Positions 1-13,055 of a stretch of DNA of 31,001 nt are shown here, one piece after another; the first letter of the stretch is position 1, and each line of letters starts with the position of its first letter. A program made the translations under genes and the position numbers. Below the pieces are notes generated by a model, which was not told where the DNA came from, did no database searches, and was given only the letters and a program-made list of their open reading frames with translations. The stretch is from Utricularia gibba (Eukaryota; Streptophyta; Magnoliopsida; Lamiales; Lentibulariaceae), in assembly GCA_002189035.1 (NCBI GenBank), contig NEEC01000301.1, forward strand, positions 1-31,001, written 5' to 3'.

Positions 1-1162
1 TCAGCTTAGGCTTGGGCCGAAAGTAAGTTGAAGCCCGGCAAAAAAGTGATGTATTTATTAACGTTCGGTTTTCGGGGTTGCCTACATGGTTTTTTCAAGG
101 AACAGCTTCTCGTTTTGTGGTGGCCAGTCTCACTAGGAACTTGGTCCGGGCCGCTGATTCTTTATGGCTCATGAGGACAAAAGGATGCAAATCGATGAAT
201 ACAATGATGCATTTGTTTAAATTACGATATCACGTGCACCCCACATCATTTTTTCAACAACGTACTTTATACTTGAAGAGGCGGTCTTGGGTGCACCTAG
301 AACGGGACAAAGGTCAGGTTGGGCTTTGCCAGAGAGTTAGTTGTAGCCCGGCAATGAAAGTGATGTATTTATTAACGTTTGGTTTTCGGGGTTGCCTACA
401 TGGTTTTCAAGGAAAAGCTTCTCGTTTTGTGGCGGCTGCTCTCGCTGGGAACTTGGTCCGGGCCCCCGATTCTATATGGCTCATGAGGTCAACCAGATGC
501 AAATCGATGAATATAATGATGCATTTGTTTTAAATTACGATATCACGTGCACCCTACATCATTTTTTCAACAACTTACTTTATACTTGAGCAGGTGGTCT
601 TGGGGGGCAAGAGGAACAGGACAAAGGTCAGCATAGGCTTTGGCCGAAAGTAAGTTGTAGCCCGGCAAAGAAAGTGATGTATGTATTAACGTTCGGTTTT
701 CGGGTTGCTTACATGGTTTTTCAAGGAACAGCTTCTCCTTTAGTGGCGGCCAGTCTCGCTAGGAACTTGGTCCGGGCCCCTGACTCTTTATGGCTCATGA
801 GGAGAAAAGGATGCAAATCCATGAATACAATGATGCATTTGTTTAAATTACGATATCACGTGCACCCTACATCATTTTTTCAACAACTACTTTATACTTG
901 AGGAGGTGGTCTTGGGGGGCAAGAGGAACCGGACAAAGGTCAGCTTAGGCTTGGGCCGAAAGTAAGTTGTAGCCCGGCAAAGAAAGTGATGTATTTATTA
1001 ACGTTCGGTTTTCGGAAGCTGCCTAAATGCTTTTTGAAAGAACATCTTCTCGTTTTATGGCGGCCAGTCTCGCTGGGAACTTGGTCCTTGACCCTGGTTC
1101 TGTATGGCTCATGGGGTGATGAAAAAAAATGATGCATTTGTTTAAATTACGGTATCACGTGC
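1..1162. repeat. Satellite array block 1 (about 3.7 monomers, classes F-G-H-I)
   Basis: Head-to-tail copies of the ~312-bp monomer. The recurring core GTAAGTTGTAGCCC (or the GTTAGTTG variant) appears near 23, 337, 650 and 961. The block begins inside a monomer and ends after the sequence CACGTGC where retroelement fragment 1 starts. The four monomers carry class markers seen again at 4064-5216 and 9036-10184: GGTCAGGTTGGGC in the second, GGTCAGCATAGGC in the third, and CGGAAGCTGCCTAAATGC in the fourth. The fourth also lacks about 15 bp between GGGGT and GATGA. No coding or RNA gene is supported; open frames here change frame between copies. Confidence 0.96.
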
Positions 1163-1898
1163 CCTGGTTATATTCATATTGTGCATTTTGGTGAGGAGAG
1201 CAGATTCACCATAAGTTTTCTCAACTTCATTACCATCTCTTAGTTCCAATCTCTTTTCTGTAGATTGCAACTCAATCATGAACTCTCTAAATGTTGGCTC
1301 TGGTGTAACAGGATATTCAGGATACAGCTGATGGAGCTTTCCTTTCAATAATGTCAAGGATTTTTCTTTCTGTCTCAAGTGCACATAACTTTGGCTCGAA
1401 TCTTGCAGGTAGGCTCATGATTGCCTTGCTAATCACCTTTTGATCCTCAAGTTTTTCCCCCAATCCTCGAATCTCCTTCACAAGCTTCGCAGTACGTTCA
1501 TAATAGACTTGTATGGTTTCATTGTCTAACATTTTGTTCCTCTCAAAGTCCTCCAGCTTGTTTTTGCATAATATCTCTCTGAGTTTGGCATCGCCTTCAT
1601 AATGGGATTTGAGAGTATCCCATATTTCTTTTGCTGATTGACACTCTGCAATATCATCAAATAGATGTTCAGAGATGGCTTGATACAAGGCATCCATTGC
1701 TTCATCTTTTCTCTGTTGAAGATACTCAGCTTCCTCTTGCTGTTCTGATGTGGATTTGCTTGTTATTGTAATAGCCGGAATCTCCCTTTCAACAACATCC
1801 CAAATCTTTCTGACCCGAAGGTAGCTGCGCATCTTTTTGACCCAGCTTCCATACTCTGAACCATCAAATATTGGAGGTCCTCTACCAGATGCCATCAT
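1142..1898 (-). pseudogene. copia gag fragment 1, frameshifted
   Basis: Remnant of a copia Gag (capsid/nucleocapsid precursor). From the ATG at 1898 the product starts MMASGRGPPIFDGSEYGSW, a DUF4219-like N terminus, followed by a UBN2-type Gag region with IWDTLKSHYEG and SLPARFEP. An extra T in the run at 1343-1345 shifts the frame. The first frame then ends as IERKAPSAVS near 1317, and the remainder (KLHQLYPEYPV onward) is read in another frame down to the stop at 1142. The other two copies have two Ts here and stay open. As in those copies, the last codons come from satellite and the zinc knuckle is absent. A one-base indel could be real or a consensus error. Confidence 0.85.
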
Positions 1899-2002
1899 AG
1901 CCACCGCTTGACAAGCTTTGGGTTGATACTTGGTAATCTACCAAGTAAAAAACGCTGAACGGTATATAAAATACTGAAACGAACACAGGTTTGAGAACCT
2001 TA

Positions 2003-2016
2003 CTGCTCTGATACCA
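2003..2016 (-). other. Primer-binding site (initiator tRNA-Met), fragment 1
   Basis: On the minus strand the bases directly after the LTR are TGGTATCAGAGCAG. The first 12, TGGTATCAGAGC, are the complement of the 3' end of plant initiator tRNA-Met including CCA, the standard primer for minus-strand cDNA synthesis in plant copia elements. Its position next to the TG...CA LTR fixes the element's orientation. Confidence 0.9.
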
Positions 2017-2146
2017 TGTTGTTGCAAGAAAAATAGAGTCTTGGGAAGTAACAAAAGGTATGCTTATGAGATCACCTTGGATGAAAAACGACTCATGAAC
2101 AATAAGAATGACCGAAAACCTAATTGACACGCATTTCTAGTAGGGC

Positions 2147-2154
2147 TATATATA
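2147..2154 (-). promoter_or_regulatory. TATA box of LTR 1
   Basis: TATATATA inside the LTR, in the minus-strand context GGCTATATATACC on the plus strand. It lies about 130 bp before the LTR 3' end, a usual position for a retroelement core promoter. Transcription from it would run leftward through gag into the satellite. It has one base fewer on one flank than the other copies. Confidence 0.6.
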
Positions 2155-2215
2155 CCAAATACCTAGGTTACCCAACAGGGCCACAATCATTGAAAACACA
2201 CAAAAAGCCCAACAA

Positions 2216-2250
2216 CTCGAATCCAACACTTCCATGCTCGAACCCAACAC
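2216..2250 (-). repeat. Short direct repeat inside LTR 1
   Basis: Two 14-bp copies, CTCGAATCCAACAC (2216-2229) and CTCGAACCCAACAC (2237-2250), differ at one base and start 21 bp apart. They lie upstream of the TATA box with respect to LTR transcription, where copia LTRs often carry repeated enhancer-like motifs. A regulatory role is inference only. The same pair is present in LTRs 2 and 3. Confidence 0.6.
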
Positions 2251-2336
2251 CTTTTTTTATCTGAAATATGACATTATGACACAAGTTTAGTTCTTCCAAT
2301 CACCTTCAAGCTTTGGATTGAGGCTGATCTCCAACA

Positions 2337-5216
2337 CTTGGTCCGGGCCCCTGATTCTTTATGGCTCATGAGGACAAAAGGATGCAAATCGATGAATACA
2401 ATGATGCAATTGTTTAAATTACGATATCACGTGCACCCTACATGATTTTTTCAACAACTTACTTTATACTTGAGGAGGTGGTCTTGGGGGCAAGAGGAAC
2501 CGGACAAAGGTCAGCTTATGCTTGGGTCGAAAGTAAGTTGTAGCCTGACAAAGAAAGTGATCTATTTATTAACGTTCGGTTTTCGGGGCTACCTACATGG
2601 TTTTTCAAGGAACGCTTCTCGTTTTGTGGCGGCCAGTCTCGCTGGAACTTGGTCTTTACCCCGATTCTGTATGGCTCATGAGGTCAACCGAATGCAAATC
2701 GATTAAAAAAAATGATGCATTTGTTTAAATTGCGATATGACGTGCACCCCACATGATTTTTTCAACAACTTACTTTATACTTGAGGAGGCGGTCTTGGGG
2801 TACAGCTGGAACGGGACAAAGGTAAGGTTTGGCTTGCGCCGAGAGTTAGTTGTAGCCCGACAAATAAAGTGATAATTTGATATCGTTCGGTTTTCGGGGC
2901 TACCTACATGGTTTTTCAAGGAACGCTTCTCGTTTTGTGGCGGCCAGTCTCGCTGGGAACTTGGTCCTTGACCCCGATTCTGTATGGCTCATGAGGTCAA
3001 CCGATGCAAATCGATTAAAAAAGTGATGCATTTGTTTAAATTGCGATATCACGTGCACCCCACATGATTTTTTCAACAACTTACTTTATACTTGAGGAGG
3101 CGATCTTGGGTGCACCTGAACGGACAAAGGTAAGGTTTGGCTTGCGCCGAGAGTTAGTTGTAGCCCGACAAATAAAGTGATGTATTTATTATCGTTCGGT
3201 TTTCGGGGGCTGCCTACATGGTTTTTCAAGGAACCGCTTCTCGTTTTGTGGCGGCCAGTCTCGCTGGGAACTTGGTCCTTGACCCCGATTCTGTATGGCT
3301 CATGAGGTCAACCGGATGCAAATCGAAAAAAAAATGATGCATTTGTTTAAATTACGATATCACGTGCACCCCACATGATTTTTTCGACAACTTACTTTAT
3401 ACATGGGAGGCGGTCTTGGGGGGTACCTGGAACGGAAAAGGTCAGCTTAGGCTTGGGCCGATAGTAAGTTGTAGCCCGGCAAAGAAAGTGATGTATTTAT
3501 TATCGTTCGGTTTTTGGGGGCTGCCTACATGGTTTTTCAAGGAACATCTTCTCTTTTTGTGGCGGCCGCTCTCGCTGGGAACTTGGTCCGGGCCCTGATT
3601 CTCTTTGGCTCATGAGGACAAAAGGATGCAAATCGATGAATACAATGATGCATTTGTTTAATTACGATATCACGTGCACCCCACATGATTTTTTCAACAA
3701 CTTACTTTATACTTGAGGAGGTGGTCTTGGGGGCAAGAGGAACCAGACAACGGTCATATTAGGCTTGGGCCGAAAGTAAGTTGTAGCCCGGCAAAAAGTG
3801 ATGTATTTATTAACGTTCGGTTTTCAGGGTTCCCTACATGGTTTTCCAAGGAAAAGCTTTTCGTTTTGTGGCGGCCGCTCTCGCTGGGACTTGGTCCGGG
3901 CCCCTAATTCTTTATGGCTCATGAGGACAAAAGGATGCAAATCGATGAAATAATGATGCATTTGTTTAAATTACGATGTCGCGTGCACCCCAAATGATTT
4001 TTTAACAACATACTTTATACATGAGGAGGCGGTCTTGGGGGGCACTTGGAACCGGAAAAAGATCAGCTTAGGCTTGGGCCGAAAGTAAGTTGTAGCCCGG
4101 CAAAGAAAGTGATGTATTTATTAACGTTCGGTTTTCGGGGTTGCCTACATGGTTTTCAAGGAACAGCTTCTCGTTTTGTGGTGGCCAGTCTCACTAGGAA
4201 CTTGGTCCGGGCCGCTGATTCTTTATGGCTCATGAGGACAAAAGGATGCAAATCGATGAATACAATGATGCATTTGTTTAAATTACGATATCACGTGCAC
4301 CCACATCATTTTTTCAACAACGTACTTTATACTTGAAGAGGCGGTCTTGGGGTGCACCTAGAACGGGACAAAGGTCAGGTTGGGCTTTGCCAGAGAGTTA
4401 GTTGTAGCCCGCAATGAAAGTGATGTATTTATTAACGTTTGGTTTTCGGGGTTGCCTACATGGTTTTTCAAGGAAAAGCTTCTCGTTTTGTGGCGGCTGC
4501 TCTCGCTGGGAACTTGGTCCGGGCCCCGATTCTATATGGCTCATGAGGTCAACCAGATGCAAATCGATGAATATAATGATGCATTTGTTTAAATTACGAT
4601 ATCACGTGCACCCTACATCATTTTTTCAACAACTTACTTTATACTTGAGCAGGTGGTCTTGGGGGCAAGAACAGGACAAGGTCAGCATAGGCTTTGGCCG
4701 AAAGTAAGTTGTAGCCCGGCAAAGAAAGTGATGTATGTATTAACGTTCGGTTTTCGGGGTTGCTTACATGGTTTTTCAAGGAACAGCTTCTCCTTTAGTG
4801 GCGGCCAGTCTCGCTAGGAACTTGGTCCGGGCCCCTGACTCTTTATGGCTCATGAGGAGAAAAGGATGCAAATCCATGAATACAATGATGCATTTGTTTA
4901 AATTACGATATCACGTGCACCCTACATCATTTTTTCAACAACGTACTTTATACTTGAGGAGGTGGTCTTGGGGGCAAGAGGAACCGGACAAAGGTCAGCT
5001 TAGGCTTGGGCCGAAAGTAAGTTGTAGCCCGGCAAAGAAAGTGATGTATTTATTAACGTTCGGTTTTCGGAAGCTGCCTAAATGCTTTTTGAAAGAACAT
5101 CTTCTCGTTTTATGGCGGCCAGTCTCGCTGGGAACTTGGTCCTTGACCCTGGTTCTGTATGGCTCATGGGTGATGAAAAAAAATGATGCATTTGTTTAAA
5201 TTACGGTATCACGTGC
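2337..5216. repeat. Satellite array block 2 (9 monomers)
   Basis: Nine tandem monomers between retroelement fragments 1 and 2, with the core GTAAGTTG/GTTAGTTG near 2532, 2846, 3152, 3464, 3775, 4085, 4397, 4704 and 5016. The block begins inside a monomer (CTTGGTCCGGGCCCC directly after the LTR) and ends at CACGTGC. The second monomer has the private variant GATAATTTGATATCG in place of GATGTATTTATTATCG. The last four monomers repeat the F-G-H-I order of block 1. No gene is supported. Confidence 0.95.
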
Positions 5217-5951
5217 CCTGGTTATATTCATATTGTGCATTTTGGTGAGGAGAGCAGATTCACCATAAGTTTTCTCAACTTCATTACCATCTCTTAGTTC
5301 CAATCTCTTTTCTGTAGATTGCAACTCAATCATGAACTCTCTAAATGTTGGCTCTGGTGTAACAGGATATTCAGGATACAGCTGATGGAGCTTTCCTTCA
5401 ATAATGTCAAGGATTTTTCTTTCTGTCTCAAGTGCACATAACTTTGGCTCGAATCTTGCAGGTAGGCTCATGATTGCCTTGCTAATCACCTTTTGATCCT
5501 CAAGTTTTTCCCCCAATCCTCGAATCTCCTTCACAAGCTTCGCAGTACGTTCATAATAGACTTGTATGGTTTCATTGTCTAACATTTTGTTCCTCTCAAA
5601 GTCCTCCAGCTTGTTTTTGCATAATATCTCTCTGAGTTTGGCATCGCCTTCATAATGGGATTTGAGAGTATCCCATATTTCTTTTGCTGATTGACACTCT
5701 GCAATATCATCAAATAGATGTTCAGAGATGGCTTGATACAAGGCATCCATTGCTTCATCTTTTCTCTGTTGAAGATACTCAGCTTCCTCTTGCTGTTCTG
5801 ATGTGGATTTGCTTGTTATTGTAATAGCCGGAATCTCCCTTTCAACAACATCCCAAATCTTTCTGACCCGAAGGTAGCTGCGCATCTTTTTGACCCAGCT
5901 TCCATACTCTGAACCATCAAATATTGGAGGTCCTCTACCAGATGCCATCAT
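5196..5951 (-). CDS. Truncated copia Gag polyprotein, fragment 2 (251 codons, chimeric end)
   Basis: N-terminal part of a copia Gag, the structural protein of the retrotransposon particle. Numbering from the first ATG (5951; an in-frame GTG lies two codons upstream), residues about 11-37 resemble DUF4219 (FDGSEYGSWVKKM ... IWDVVE). Residues from about 69 to 200 are UBN2/Retrotran_gag_2-like, with IWDTLKSHYEG near 92-102 and SLPARF near 162-167. FMIELQSTEKRLE near 213-225 matches the part of the family before the zinc knuckle. The CCHC knuckle, protease and pol are missing. The last six residues (ARDTVI) and the stop are encoded by satellite DNA. The frame is intact, but the protein lacks nucleic-acid binding and catalytic domains and is most likely a relic. 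The family assignment is firm; expression is unknown. Confidence 0.85.
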   Translation of the reverse strand: MMASGRGPPIFDGSEYGSWVKKMRSYLRVRKIWDVVEREIPAITITSKSTSEQQEEAEYLQQRKDEAMDALYQAISEHLFDDIAECQSAKEIWDTLKSHYEGDAKLREILCKNKLEDFERNKMLDNETIQVYYERTAKLVKEIRGLGEKLEDQKVISKAIMSLPARFEPKLCALETERKILDIIEGKLHQLYPEYPVTPEPTFREFMIELQSTEKRLELRDGNEVEKTYGESALLTKMHNMNITRARDTVI

Positions 5952-6055
5952 AGCCACCGCTTGACAAGCTTTGGGTTGATACTTGGTAATCTACCAAGTA
6001 AAAAACGCTGAACGGTATATAAAATACTGAAACGAACACAGGTTTGAGAACCTTA

Positions 6056-6069
6056 CTGCTCTGATACCA
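6056..6069 (-). other. Primer-binding site (initiator tRNA-Met), fragment 2
   Basis: Minus-strand TGGTATCAGAGCAG directly abuts the LTR end; the first 12 bases match the complement of the plant initiator tRNA-Met 3' end. Confidence 0.9.
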
Positions 6070-6394
6070 TGTTGTTGCAAGAAAAATAGAGTCTTGGGAA
6101 GTAACAAAAAGGTAATGCTTATGAGATCACCTTGGATGAAAAACGACTCATGAACAATAAGAATGACCGAAAACCTAATTGACACGCATTTCTAGTAGGG
6201 CTTATATATACCAAATACCTAGGTTACCCAACAGTGGGCCACAATCATTGAAAACACACAAAAAGCCCAACAACTCGAATCCAACACTTCCATGCTCGAA
6301 CCCAACACCTTTTTTTATCTGAAATATGACATTATGACACAAGTTTAGTTCTTCCAATCACCTTCAAGCTTTGGATTGAGGCTGATCTCCAACA
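6070..6394 (-). repeat. 5' LTR of copia fragment 2 (325 bp)
   Basis: Minus-strand TGTTGG...CAACA ends with the primer-binding site immediately downstream. It contains the TATA box and the internal 14-bp direct repeat. It differs from LTR 1 by small insertions, for example AACAGTGGGCC where LTR 1 has AACAGGGCC. Confidence 0.88.
6203..6210 (-). promoter_or_regulatory. TATA box of LTR 2
   Basis: TATATATA in the LTR, about 130 bp before its 3' end on the minus strand, oriented toward gag and the satellite to the left. Confidence 0.6.
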
Positions 6395-8141
6395 CTTGGT
6401 CCGGGCCCCTGATTCTTTATGGCTCATGAGGACAAAAGGATGCAAATCGATGAATACAATGATGCAATTGTTTAAATTACGATATCACGTGCACCCTACA
6501 TGATTTTTTCAACAACTTACTTTATACTTGAGGAGGTGGTCTTGGGGGGCAAGAGGAACCGGACAAAGGTCAGCTTATGCTTGGGTCGAAAGTAAGTTGT
6601 AGCCTGACAAAGAAAGTGATCTATTTATTAACGTTCGGTTTTCGGGGCTACCTACATGGTTTTTCAAGGAACCGCTTCTCGTTTTGTGGCGGCCAGTCTC
6701 GCTGGGAACTTGGTCCTTTACCCCGATTCTGTATGGCTCATGAGGTCAACCGAATGCAAATCGATTAAAAAAAATGATGCATTTGTTTAAATTGCGATAT
6801 GACGTGCACCCCACATGATTTTTTCAACAACTTACTTTATACTTGAGGAGGCGGTCTTGGGTGCACCTGGAACGGGACAAAGGTAAGGTTTGGCTTGCGC
6901 CGAGAGTTAGTTGTAGCCCGACAAATAAAGTGATAAATTTGATATCGTTCGGTTTTCAGGGGCTACCTACATGGTTTTTCAAGGAACCGCTTCTCGTTTT
7001 GTGGCGGCCAGTCTCGCTGGGAACTTGGTCCTTGACCCCGATTCTGTATGGCTCATGAGGTCAACCGGATGCAAATCGATTAAAAAAATGATGCATTTGT
7101 TTAAATTGCGATATGACGTGCACCCCACATGATTTTTTCAACAACTTACTTTATACTTGAGGAGGCGGTCTTGGGTGCACCTGGAACGGGACAAAGGTAA
7201 GGTTTGGCTTGGCCGAGAGTTAGTTGTAGCCCGACAAATAAAGTGATGTATTTATTATCGTTCGGTTTTCGGGGGCTGCCTACATGGTTTTTCAAGGAAC
7301 CGCTTCTCGTTTTGTGGCGGCCAGTCTCGCTGGGAACTTGGTCCTTGACCCCGATTCTGTATGGCTCATGGGGTCAACCGGATGCAAATCGAAGAAAAAA
7401 AATGATGCATTTGTTTAAATTACGATATCACGTGCACCCACATGATTTTTTCAACAACTTACTTTATACATGGGGAGGCGGTCTTGGGGGTACCTGGAAC
7501 GGAAAATGGTCAGCTTGGCTTGGCCGATAGTAAGTTGTAGCCCGGCAAAAAAGTGATGTATTTATTATCGTTCGGTTTTCGGGGGCTGCCTACATGGTTT
7601 TTCAAGGAACATCTTCTCTTTTTGTGGCGGCCAGTCTCGCTGGGAACTTGGTCCGGCCCCGATTCTTTGGCTCATGAGGTCAAAAGGATGCAAATCGATG
7701 AAAAAATGATGCATTTGTTTAATTACGATATCACGTGCACCCCACATGATTTTTTCAACAACTTACTTTATACTTGAGGAGGCGGTCTTGGGGCAAGAGG
7801 AACCAGACAAGGTCATTTAGGCTTGGGCCGAAAGTAAGTTGTAGCCCGGCAAAGAAAGTGATGTATTTATTAACGTTCGGTTTTCGGGTTCCTACATGGT
7901 TTTCAAGGAAAAGCTTTTCGTTTTGTGGCGGCCGCTCTCGCTGGGAACTTGGTCCGGGCCCCGATTCTTTATGGCTCATGAGGTCAAAAGGATGCAAATC
8001 GATGAAAAAATGATGCATTTGTTTAAATTACGATGTCGCGTGCACCCCAAATGATTTTTTTAACAACTTACTTTATACTTGAGGAGGCGGTCTTGGGGGG
8101 CACTTGGAACCGGAAAAAGTCAGCTTAGGCTTGGGCCGAAA

Positions 8142-9057
8142 GTAAGTTGTAGCCCGGCAAAGAAAGTGATGTATTTATTACGTTCGGTTTTCGGGGTTGC
8201 CTACATGGTTTTTCAAGGAACAGCTTCTCGTTTTGTGGGCCAGTCTCGCTGGAACTTGGTCCGGGCCCTGATTCTTTATGGCTCATGAGGACAAAAGGAT
8301 GCAAATCGATGAAAAAATGATGCATTTGTTTAAATTACGATATCACGTGCACCCCACATGATTTTTTCAACAACTTACTTTATACTTGAGAGGCGGTCTT
8401 GGGGTGCACCTAGAACGGGACAAAGGTCAGGTTGGGCTTGCCGAGAGTTAGTTGTAGCCCGGCAAAGAAAGTGATGTATTTATTATCGTTCGGTTTTCGG
8501 GGTTGCCTACATGGTTTTTCAAGGAAAGCTTCTCGTTTTGTGGCGGCTGCTCTCGCTGGGAACTTGGTCCGGGCCCCGATTCTTATGGCTCATGAGGTCA
8601 ACCAGATGCAAATCGATGAATAAAATGATGCATTTGTTTAAATTACGATATCACGTGCACCCTACATCATTTTTTCAACAACTTACTTTATACTTGAGCA
8701 GGTGGTCTTGGGGGCAAGAGGAACAGGACAAAGGTCAGCATAGGCTTGGCCGAAAGTAAGTTGTAGCCCGGCAAAGAAAGTGATGTATTTATTAACGTTC
8801 GGTTTTCGGGGTTGCTACATGGTTTTTCAAGGAACAGCTTCTCTTTGTGGCGGCCAGTCTCGCTGGAACTTGGTCCGGGCCCCTGATTCTTTATGGCTCA
8901 TGAGGAGAAAAGGATGCAAATCTGAATACAATGATGCATTTGTTTAAATTACGATATCACGTGCACCCTACATGATTTTTTCAACAACTACTTTATACTT
9001 GAGGAGGGTCTTGGGGGGCAAGGAACCGGAAAAGGTCAGCTTAGGCTTGGGCCGAAA
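8142..9057. repeat. F-G-H three-monomer unit, first copy (~916 bp)
   Basis: Measured from core to core. The three monomers share order and class markers with the next 926 bp: GGTCAGGTTGGGC in the second monomer (near 8427) and GGTCAGCATAGGC in the third (near 8734). This extra trimer is missing from the compound unit at 1163-5216 and accounts for the length difference between the two units. It is more diverged from block 1 than the second copy is. Confidence 0.75.
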
Positions 9058-9983
9058 GTAAGTTGTAGCCCGGCAAAGAAAGTGATGTATTTATTAACGT
9101 TCGGTTTTCGGGGTTGCCTACATGGTTTTTCAAGGAACAGCTTCTCGTTTTGTGGTGGCCAGTCTCACTAGGAACTTGGTCCGGGCCCTGATTCTTTATG
9201 GCTCATGAGGACAAAAGGATGCAAATCGATGAATACAATGATGCATTTGTTTAAATTACGATATCACGTGCACCCCACATCATTTTTTCAACAATACTTT
9301 ATACTTGAAGAGGCGGTCTTGGGGTGCACCTAGAACGGGACAAAGGTCAGGTTGGCTTTGCCGAGAGTTAGTTGTAGCCCGGCAATGAAAGTGATGTATT
9401 TATTAACGTTTGGTTTTCGGGTTGCCTACATGGTTTTTCAAGGAAAAGCTTCTCGTTTTGTGGCGGCTGCTCTCGCTGGGAACTTGGTCCGGGCCCCCGA
9501 TTCTATATGGCTCATGAGGTCAACCAGATGCAAATCGATGAATATAATGCATTTGTTTAAATTACGATATCACGTGCACCCTACATCATTTTTTCAACAA
9601 TACTTTATACTTGAGCAGGTGGTCTTGGGGGCAAGAGGAACAGGACAAAGGTCAGCATAGGCTTTGGCCGAAAGTAAGTTGTAGCCCGGCAAAGAAAGTG
9701 ATGTATGTATTAACGTTCGGTTTTCGGGTTGCTTACATGGTTTTTCAAGGAACAGCTTCTCCTTTAGTGGCGGCCAGTCTCGCTAGGAACTTGGTCCGGG
9801 CCCCTGACTCTTTATGGCTCATGAGGAGAAAAGGATGCAAATCCATGAATACAATGATGCATTTGTTTAAATTACGATATCACGTGCACCCTACATCATT
9901 TTTTCAACAACTACTTTATACTTGAGGAGGGGTCTTGGGGGGCAAGAGGAACCGGAAAAGGTCAGCTTAGGCTTGGGCCGAAA
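9058..9983. repeat. F-G-H three-monomer unit, second copy (~926 bp)
   Basis: Direct tandem partner of the preceding trimer. It has the same class order and matches 1-960 and 4085-5015 closely, including the variants GGTGGCCAGTCTCACTAGG in F and CTCCTTTAGTGGCGG in H. Confidence 0.8.
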
Positions 9984-10163
9984 GTAAGTTGTAGCCCGGC
10001 AAAGAAAGTGATGTATTTATTAACGTTCGGTTTTCGGAAGCTGCCTAAATGCTTTTTGAAAGAACATCTTCTCGTTTTATGGCGGCCAGTCTCGCTGGGA
10101 ACTTGGTCCTTGACCCTGGTTCTGTATGGCTCATGGGGTGATGAAAAAAAATGATGCATTTGT

Positions 10164-10919
10164 TTAAATTACGGTATCACGTGCCCTGGTTATATTCATA
10201 TTGTGCATTTTGGTGAGGAGAGCAGATTCACCATAAGTTTTCTCAACTTCATTACCATCTCTTAGTTCCAATCTCTTTTCTGTAGATTGCAACTCAATCA
10301 TGAACTCTCTAAATGTTGGCTCTGGTGTAACAGGATATTCAGGATACAGCTGATGGAGCTTTCCTTCAATAATGTCAAGGATTTTTCTTTCTGTCTCAAG
10401 TGCACATAACTTTGGCTCGAATCTTGCAGGTAGGCTCATGATTGCCTTGCTAATCACCTTTTGATCCTCAAGTTTTTCCCCCAATCCTCGAATCTCCTTC
10501 ACAAGCTTCGCAGTACGTTCATAATAGACTTGTATGGTTTCATTGTCTAACATTTTGTTCCTCTCAAAGTCCTCCAGCTTGTTTTTGCATAATATCTCTC
10601 TGAGTTTGGCATCGCCTTCATAATGGGATTTGAGAGTATCCCATATTTCTTTTGCTGATTGACACTCTGCAATATCATCAAATAGATGTTCAGAGATGGC
10701 TTGATACAAGGCATCCATTGCTTCATCTTTTCTCTGTTGAAGATACTCAGCTTCCTCTTGCTGTTCTGATGTGGATTTGCTTGTTATTGTAATAGCCGGA
10801 ATCTCCCTTTCAACAACATCCCAAATCTTTCTGACCCGAAGGTAGCTGCGCATCTTTTTGACCCAGCTTCCATACTCTGAACCATCAAATATTGGAGGTC
10901 CTCTACCAGATGCCATCAT
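10164..10919 (-). CDS. Truncated copia Gag polyprotein, fragment 3 (251 codons, chimeric end)
   Basis: The encoded protein appears identical to that at 5196-5951. The first ATG is at 10919 (an in-frame GTG sits two codons earlier). The DUF4219-like start, the UBN2-like core with IWDTLKSHYEG and SLPARF, and the pre-knuckle region are present. The chain ends in ARDTVI and a TAA read from satellite (stop at 10164-10166). The zinc knuckle, protease and all enzymatic domains are missing. Identity with the second copy fits recent amplification of the compound repeat rather than selection on the protein. It is most likely an inert fragment, though the LTR promoter lies in the right place to transcribe it. 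Confidence 0.85.
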   Translation of the reverse strand: MMASGRGPPIFDGSEYGSWVKKMRSYLRVRKIWDVVEREIPAITITSKSTSEQQEEAEYLQQRKDEAMDALYQAISEHLFDDIAECQSAKEIWDTLKSHYEGDAKLREILCKNKLEDFERNKMLDNETIQVYYERTAKLVKEIRGLGEKLEDQKVISKAIMSLPARFEPKLCALETERKILDIIEGKLHQLYPEYPVTPEPTFREFMIELQSTEKRLELRDGNEVEKTYGESALLTKMHNMNITRARDTVI

Positions 10920-11023
10920 AGCCACCGCTTGACAAGCTTTGGGTTGATACTTGGTAATCTACCAAGTAAAAAACGCTGAACGGTATATAAAATACTGAAA
11001 CGAACACAGGTTTGAGAACCTTA

Positions 11024-11037
11024 CTGCTCTGATACCA
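11024..11037 (-). other. Primer-binding site (initiator tRNA-Met), fragment 3
   Basis: Minus-strand TGGTATCAGAGCAG immediately after the LTR end, matching the plant initiator tRNA-Met complement over its first 12 bases. Confidence 0.9.
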
Positions 11038-11362
11038 TGTTGTTGCAAGAAAAATAGAGTCTTGGGAAGTAACAAAAAGGTAATGCTTATGAGATCACCT
11101 TGGATGAAAAACGACTCATGAACAATAAGAATGACCGAAAACCTAATTGACACGCATTTCTAGTAGGGCTTATATATACCAAATACCTAGGTTACCCAAC
11201 AGTGGGCCACAATCATTGAAAACACACAAAAAGCCCAACAACTCGAATCCAACACTTCCATGCTCGAACCCAACACCTTTTTTTATCTGAAATATGACAT
11301 TATGACACAAGTTTAGTTCTTCCAATCACCTTCAAGCTTTGGATTGAGGCTGATCTCCAACA
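11038..11362 (-). repeat. 5' LTR of copia fragment 3 (325 bp)
   Basis: TGTTGG...CAACA on the minus strand, with the same TATA box, internal 14-bp direct repeat and adjoining primer site as LTR 2, and the same length. Confidence 0.88.
11171..11178 (-). promoter_or_regulatory. TATA box of LTR 3
   Basis: TATATATA in the LTR about 130 bp before its 3' end on the minus strand; same context as LTR 2. Confidence 0.6.
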
Positions 11363-13055
11363 CTTGGTCCGGGCCCCTGATTCTTTATGGCTCATGAGGA
11401 CAAAAGGATGCAAATCGATGAATACAATGATGCAATTGTTTAAATTACGATATCACGTGCACCCTACATGATTTTTTCAACAACTTACTTTATACTTGAG
11501 GAGGTGGTCTTGGGGGGCAAGAGGAACCGGACAAAGGTCAGCTTATGCTTGGGTCGAAAGTAAGTTGTAGCCTGACAAAGAAAGTGATCTATTTATTAAC
11601 GTTCGGTTTTCGGGGCTACCTACATGGTTTTTCAAGGAACCGCTTCTCGTTTTGTGGCGGCCAGTCTCGCTGGGAACTTGGTCCTTTACCCCGATTCTGT
11701 ATGGCTCATGAGGTCAACCGAATGCAAATCGATTAAAAAAAATGATGCATTTGTTTAAATTGCGATATGACGTGCACCCCACATGATTTTTTCAACAACT
11801 TACTTTATACTTGGGGAGGCGGTCTTGGGGTGCACCTGGAACGGGACAAAGGTAAGGTTTGGCTAGCGCCGAGAGTTAGTTGTAGCCCGACAAATAAAGT
11901 GATAAATTTGATATCGTTCGGTTTTCAGGGGCTACCTACATGGTTTTTCAAGGAACCGCTTCTCGTTTTGTGGCGGCCAGTCTCGCTGGGAACTTGGTCT
12001 TTGACCCCGATTCTGTATGGCTCATGAGGTCAACCGGATGCAAATCGATTAAAAAAAATGATGCATTTGTTTAAATTGCGGTATGACGTGCACCCCACAT
12101 GATTTTTTTCAACAACTTACTTTATACTTCAGGAGGCGGTCTTGGGGTGCACCTGGAACGGGACAAAGGTCAGCTTAGGCTTGGCAGAAAGTAAGTTGTA
12201 GCCCGCCAAAGAAAGTGATGTATTTATTATCGTTTGGTTTTCGGGGTTGCCTACATGGTTTTTCAAGGAACATCTTCTCGTTTTGTGGCTCGCTGGGGAC
12301 TTTTCCTGGACCCCGATTCTGTATGGCTCATGGGGTCAAAAGGATGCAAATCGATGAATAAAATGATGCATTTGTTTAATTACGATATCACGTGCACCCC
12401 ACATGATTTTTTCGACAACTTACTTTATACATGGGAGGCGGTCTTGGGGGTACCTGGAACCGGAAAATGGTCAGCTTAGGCTTGGGCCGATAGTAAGTTG
12501 TAGCCCGGCAAAGAAAGTGATGTATTTATTATCGTTCGGTTTTCGGGGGTTCCTACATGGTTTTTCAAGGAACATCTTCTCGTTTTGTGGCAGCCAGTCT
12601 CGCTGGGAGCTTTGTCCTGACCCCGATTCTGTATGGCTCATGGGGTCAAAAGGATGCAAATCGATGAATACAATGATGCATTTGTTTCAATTACGATATC
12701 ACGTGCACCCCACATGATTTTTTCGACAACTTACTTTATACATGGGAGGCGGTCTTGGGGGTACCTGGAACCGGAAAATGGTCAGCTTAGGCTTGGGCCG
12801 ATAGTAAGTTGTAGCCCGGCAAGAAAGTGATGTATTTATTAACGTTCGGTTTTCGGGGTTGCCTACATGGTTTTTCAAGGAACATCTTCCCGTTTTGTGG
12901 TGGCTAGTCTCGCTGGGAACTTTGTCCTGGACCTCGATTCTTTATGTCTTATGAGGTCAACCGGATGCAAATCGATGAAAAAAATTGATGCATTTGTTTA
13001 AATTACGATATCACGTGCACCCTACATGATTTTTTCAACAACTTACTTTATACTT

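Follow-up and report, generated by a model that had tools for sequence, protein, structure and literature searches.

Long terminal repeat (LTR) retrotransposons of the ATHILA group are reportedly present in the CEN178 satellite arrays of Arabidopsis, some of them duplicated together with their flanks; in work attributed to Wlodzimierz et al. (2023) they are said to be Ty3-type elements, mostly full-length or reduced to solo LTRs. The contig of Utricularia gibba described here (C15, 31,001 bases, analysed entire as assembled and called the window below; the genome comprises 100,091,633 bases in 516 contigs) resembles that system in carrying LTR retrotransposon sequence within a satellite array, and differs from it in that the inserted sequence is one truncated 5′ piece of a copia element.

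In maize centromere 10, partial retrotransposons lie within the centromere satellite and adjacent duplications make higher-order repeats, which is attributed to short-homology end joining; the same article cites novel tandem repeats near CEN9 that derive from CR1 (PMC4806543). The U. gibba array is similar in these respects. However, the maize elements are centromeric CR elements, and the available text of that article mentions no single truncated fragment that recurs within the CentC unit, whereas here one copia piece recurs 16 to 25 times. The satellites of Lathyrus sativus are another case of retrotransposon sequence turned tandem, with complex interlaced arrays, but according to the available text their monomers stem from tandem repeats inside Ogre elements (PMC7004042), while here the monomer and the element are unlike and were joined later. 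Routes by which transposons feed satellites have been collected in a review (PMC12628747). Retrotransposon capture into plant satellites is, as noted in the first-pass annotation of this DNA, a known process, the maize case being a precedent in print. In the titles and abstract openings listed for the literature on Utricularia satellites, tandem repeats and centromeres, neither the U. gibba satellite nor the compound repeat is named.

The window is satellite throughout, built of ~312-bp monomers that all lie on the plus strand (TRF and profile scan), and is interrupted by three inserts (Table 1) at spacings of 4,054 and 4,968 bp. Each insert reads, on the minus strand, as an LTR with TG...CA ends, an adjoining primer-binding site (PBS) TGGTATCAGAGC, which we take to fit the initiator methionine tRNA, and a gag gene that begins at its start codon and is broken off after ~240 codons, where the satellite begins again. 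The inserts are thus incomplete elements, in which the second LTR and pol are absent. The gag frame of copy 2 matches Retrotran_gag_2 (Pfam PF14223, E 2.3e-27), a copia-type gag. Small insertions and deletions (indels) account for most of the differences among the three inserts; copy 1, near the contig start, has more of them than copies 2 and 3, including a frameshift. Among the 24 complete inserts of the genome, the gag frame is free of stops in 14 and has at least one stop in 10. The minus-strand LTR contains TATATAA in copies 2 and 3 and TATATAG in copy 1, which resembles a TATA box; transcription starting there would pass through gag into the satellite.

One insertion, later amplified together with the satellite, as proposed in the first-pass annotation, is well supported by the sequences of the inserts and their joints. 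The annotation had recognised three LTR-PBS-gag copies with common breakpoints, and both junctions are indeed letter-identical in all three window inserts. The assembly-wide junction search that it suggested carries this further. The left junction (200-bp query) has at least 25 full-length matches on five contigs (13 on C477, four each on C39 and C513, three in the window and one on C21), which is a lower bound with the best 40 of 499 candidates scored; the remaining 28 rows of the search hold the element part alone or the satellite part alone. The right junction has at least 23 full-length matches among the best 40 of 981 candidates. The left junction is letter-identical in all 25 fetched places. 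On the right, all 24 readable copies have CAACA joined to one and the same monomer base. Of these, 23 read CTTGGTCCG and one lacks one G of it; the C21 insert leaves its contig before this point, and the last insert of C513 has nine bases beyond it.

Both neighbouring monomers carry private variants. In 140,282 bases of satellite stretches, TTACGGTATC occurs 25 times, each at a left junction, and its usual form TTACGATATC 209 times; GATGCAATTG occurs 23 times, each in the first right-hand monomer. Exactly three of the latter lie in the window, each one base off the position noted in the annotation (Table 1). The fragment itself is marked by six substitutions, which all 24 complete inserts share and the three ordinary copies compared lack (1,165 compared columns). 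The identity of the junctions, the private variants on both sides and these six substitutions together argue for a single founding event. Chance is excluded as the source of the likeness of the window inserts, given their differences mainly by indels as opposed to a mean identity of 90.8% (sd 3.5) between random monomer pairs, 3.7% of which reach at least 99% (400 pairs, 327 near-complete monomers).

The source of the insert is assigned to the Ty1/copia LTR retrotransposons by its LTR ends and PBS, its gag type and the order of its pol domains. A 24-base pattern of the PBS site, with two mismatches allowed, has 90 matches in the genome (reversed control, 0), of which 24 lie in the inserts and 66 elsewhere. 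An ordinary copy on C510 runs on beyond the gag breakpoint of the insert; its second LTR adjoins CTCCCCCC, a polypurine tract when read on the element strand, and its pol contains gag_pre-integrs, rve and then RVT_2 in a single frame. The integrase therefore precedes the reverse transcriptase, as is the order in copia elements. One of three LTR pairs, that on C1, is flanked by a perfect 5-bp target duplication (AATTT), and the pairs on C510 and C4 have no match. The LTRs differ at 0 of 325 sites on C510, at 4 of 324 on C1 and by 20 substitutions on C4, where the pair probably does not come from one single element. The copia matches are clustered on several large contigs, for example at 1.98-2.05 Mb of C4 and 2.83-2.92 Mb of C2. 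Within the C4 cluster (C4:1,985,001-2,003,000), an identical pattern of copia pieces recurs ~12 kb apart, likely a local duplication.

We hypothesize a single integration of a Ty1/copia element, in minus orientation, into the satellite, by which the 5′ LTR end was joined to CTTGGTCC of a monomer. This LTR end is exact in 24 readable copies, suggesting that integration itself placed it there. A deletion would then have removed the rest of the element from inside gag, the 3′ LTR and ~0.2 kb of satellite, or these plus whole monomers; the loss of ~0.2 kb of monomer, or more by whole monomers, is indicated by the profile scan, as the satellite restarts to the right of the insert at a different monomer position from that at which it stops on the left. 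On the left, the satellite sequence CACGTGCACCCTACATG is fused to the element sequence TTGCACCTGAGGTTATATTC, giving CACGTGCCCTGGTTATATTC; within the satellite stretches, CACGTGCCC is confined to the 25 joints. Since TGCACC is common to both parents at the gag-side break and a few bases are missing from the joint, as in error-prone joining, microhomology-mediated end joining is the likely route by which this break would have been closed.

The resulting chimeric block would have multiplied by unequal homologous exchange between in-register monomers, carrying the insert along with a variable number of whole monomers. The compound unit of 4-5 kb described in the first-pass annotation has in fact no fixed size: 19 intervals between neighbouring inserts, measured without the ~43 kb between the two groups of C477, give periods of 3,113 to 6,840 bp. 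In all 19 the satellite between the inserts amounts to n + 0.16 to 0.36 monomers, where n is 6, 8, 9, 10, 12, 13, 14 or 18. C477 holds two regular blocks, one of five inserts at 3,764-3,779 bp and one of five at 3,113-3,149 bp, which are tandem multi-monomer repeats with flanks 95-100% identical in the first and 94-100% in the second (pairs compared); the 30 kb between the blocks (136,001-166,000) were read at 150,001-151,000 only. Judged by their sequence, these blocks of 3.77 and 3.15 kb are compound or higher-order satellite repeats, and they would have arisen locally on C477.

In all pairs, flank identity is at least 97% for ~300 bp to the right of the insert and ~75 bp to its left (225 right and 272 left pairs, gaps omitted), which together with the insert makes a constant core of ~1.55 kb. 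The next 75 bp on the left go down to 94.7%, and single windows farther out to 81%. The insert at C477:113570 is identical on its right side over 2.5 kb (100%) to the next one in its block, C477:117343; its left side departs from its own block after 300 bp, with 83-97% beyond, and instead resembles the left flank of window copy 2 over 2.5 kb, where 16 of 17 comparison windows show 98-100% and the second one 89%. As the spacing changes in steps of whole monomers and the flanks are mosaic, we infer unequal exchange between monomers as the mechanism of amplification.

The whole scenario of a single integration, a deletion and amplification by unequal exchange is considered highly probable, and a number of observations weigh against it. 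No full element, which would be the intermediate, was found at this satellite position. The microhomology is imperfect in that two or three bases of either parent are missing from the joint. Furthermore, the history of the inserts is not a simple tree. Substitutions among them occupy nine alignment columns, of which two are widely shared and the remaining seven are found in copy 1 or C39:9595, near indels. The two shared substitutions largely separate the window and C477 103-130 kb from C477 173-192 kb, C39 and C513, with exceptions at the first site (C477:188150, C477:191276 and C513:30839) and at the second (C39:9595, C477:188150 and one gapped insert). Indels occur in 50 columns, part of them probably being sequencing errors. 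The regular blocks and the overlaps between contigs, which are weighed with the alternatives below, count on the same side.

Regular blocks of near-identical units could also come about if a circle of satellite and insert were excised, replicated by the rolling-circle mode and reinserted, in place of exchange within the array. Two five-insert blocks of near-constant period and flanks that are in some cases 100% identical over 2.5 kb would follow readily from such copying; nevertheless it is unlikely to be the main route, as exchange in place is expected to leave just such whole-monomer spacing steps and, between blocks, mosaic flanks. The two processes can also act together.

An assembly artefact, in which one insert was multiplied by collapsed or misjoined PacBio contigs, is highly improbable. 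C39 parallels C477:172-188 kb over 16 kb at 97.8%, C513 parallels C477:174-186 kb (12 kb, 97.9%), and C21 and C15 overlap at 98.4%, the former with its end and the latter with its start (left end), so that copies on these contigs may be one locus; the overlapping contigs may represent alleles, near-copies or assembly leftovers. Window copy 1, which is richest in indels, is also nearest the contig start, and with the mean subread of 10,385 bases given in the available text on the published PacBio data of U. gibba (PMC5793159) an average read covers just two or three units. On the other hand, the intervals vary from 6 to 18 monomers, the inserts fall largely into two groups by two substitutions, C477 alone has 13 inserts in two blocks of unlike period, and the three of the window lie at other intervals. 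Because of the possible redundancy of contigs, the conservative count is 16 inserts (C477 and C15 alone), within a full range of 16-25; the number of units inside the regular blocks is not secure, as the count comes from the assembly.

The same copia family also left a truncated copy in the satellite on C235 (L084:5948-7424), in the opposite orientation, with an exact LTR end, a different gag cut and 87% identity. It is an independent, older event, so that the family entered the satellite at least twice. C235 has a single match to the PBS pattern and no evident amplification, in searches that did not use this copy's own junctions. The copy is followed by satellite turned round, and the locus also has a 58-bp LTR piece. 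Separate insertions at a preferred satellite position, truncated alike afterwards, might be suggested by this second entry, which likewise kept the LTR end and part of gag, but can hardly be credited and were rejected, as the C235 event has another breakpoint, orientation and level of identity, and separate hits would be very unlikely to produce the same gag breakpoint 25 times and private variants in both adjoining monomers.

Window copy 2 and the ordinary copy on C510 differ at 11 of 1,174 sites. With substitution rates of 0.7 to 1.3e-8 per site and year, their common source may be dated to some 0.4 to 0.7 million years ago. Raised rates are described for several plastid, mitochondrial and ribosomal sequences of Genlisea and Utricularia in the available text of one study (PMC4542322), and would shrink this estimate. 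Dating of the amplification itself is unsafe because the inserts undergo exchange and conversion.

Apart from the inserts, the window contains the satellite arrays listed in Table 1; no RNA gene was found in it by Rfam match at the gathering threshold, and no tRNA. The array at 11363-31001 matches itself at 92.4% at a shift of four monomers and at ~86% at a shift of one, a hint of a four-monomer higher-order repeat there. An organisation in half-monomers of ~156 bp is weakly indicated by a match of 66% over 56 bp (E 0.008). Derivation of the satellite from the element was rejected, the insert having no match in the fetched satellite stretches outside the 25 inserts themselves (E 1e-10; this part of the element only). 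Likewise rejected was a connection with the 161-bp centromeric repeat of Genlisea nigrocaulis, both printed primers, which alone were compared, having at least 8 mismatches at every window position.

Table 1. Satellite and insert features of the window, with positions in bases from its first letter
Feature	Position	Strand	Basis
Satellite monomers left of insert 1	1..1166	+	TRF, profile scan
Last partial monomer left of insert 1, with private variant TTACGGTATC	from 1085	+	profile scan, variant count
Insert copy 1: copia LTR, PBS and truncated gag (frameshifted)	1167..2336	-	sequence comparison
gag 5′ part of copy 1, ending at left junction	1167..1895	-	sequence comparison
PBS TGGTATCAGAGC, adjoining LTR of copy 1	2005..2016	-	sequence
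LTR of copy 1, TGTTGGA...CAACAACA, 320 bp	2017..2336	-	sequence comparison
First right-hand monomer of copy 1, private variant GATGCAATTG at 2403	2337..2646	+	profile scan
Left-junction partial monomer of copy 2, with TTACGGTATC	5140..5220	+	profile scan, variant count
Open gag frame of copy 2, 253 aa from upstream GTG, final codons entering satellite	5196..5957	-	Pfam Retrotran_gag_2
Insert copy 2	5221..6394	-	
LTR of copy 2, 325 bp	6070..6394	-	
First right-hand monomer of copy 2, GATGCAATTG at 6461	6395..6709	+	profile scan
Left-junction partial monomer of copy 3, with TTACGGTATC	10107..10188	+	profile scan, variant count
Insert copy 3, gag frame open	10189..11362	-	
LTR of copy 3, 325 bp	11038..11362	-	
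First right-hand monomer of copy 3, GATGCAATTG at 11429	11363..11677	+	profile scan
Satellite without interruption up to contig end	11678..31001	+	TRF, profile scan

In the genome as a whole, a monomer pattern with two mismatches allowed has 7,145 matches (control, 0), which corresponds to 2.2 Mb at one match per 312 bp, or ~2.9 Mb at a detection of 77% (293 of 380 monomer hits in fetched stretches), i.e. 2-3% of the assembly. Exact monomer matches are presumably absent from C1-C6, as judged from the first 100 of 7,145 matches, listed by contig, which are all exact and start at C7; mismatched forms may be present on C1-C6. Among 29 readable ends of 15 contigs longer than 1 Mb, two carry the satellite (the end of C402 and the start of C414). 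The smaller C460 and C510 have diverged satellite at both ends; it is in plus orientation at the start of each contig and in minus orientation at the end, so that their flanking arrays are oppositely oriented. Plant telomere repeats are found at both ends of C3 and C4 and at the start of C1 and C2, and are missing from the ends of C1 and C2.

On C402, diverged satellite is first matched 4.4 kb beyond the last copia match, and in the copia cluster of C4 no satellite was found in the 38 kb read. The neighbourhood of copia clusters fits a pericentromeric place of the satellite and is not a proof of it. C402 also contains a second compound array soon after its copia cluster (2,595,031-2,629,907; L051, L086, L097-L099), with units of ~2.33 kb in which ~0.84 kb of diverged satellite is combined with ~1.49 kb of a large imperfect inverted repeat containing 62-bp subrepeats; the units are 98.8-99.2% alike within the 9.6 kb of L086. 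At C477:887-2500 (L015) the array is broken by non-satellite sequence that contains a large inverted repeat and, judged by eye, apparently Ty3-type retrotransposon sequence.

Satellite repeats are described as absent from the putative centromeres of U. gibba in the available text of one report (PMC8333044), yet the satellite described here accounts for at least 2% of the assembly. The TATA-like motif of the LTR, the satellite-poor copia clusters on at least one large contig and the satellite adjoining such a cluster on C402 leave open a centromere type in transition, in which some chromosomes would have satellite-poor copia clusters as their centromeres and others would be building insert-bearing satellite arrays, whose inward-facing LTR promoters might yield transcripts that help to set up centromere or heterochromatin; this reading is very doubtful.

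The amplification process is already known, and the copia-satellite case of U. gibba is a further instance of it, at an unusually readable stage. The breakpoints of the founder, the private variants of both its neighbours and the whole-monomer spacing steps are all still legible in one capture event, and thus the exchange process that builds satellite repeats is traceable stepwise.

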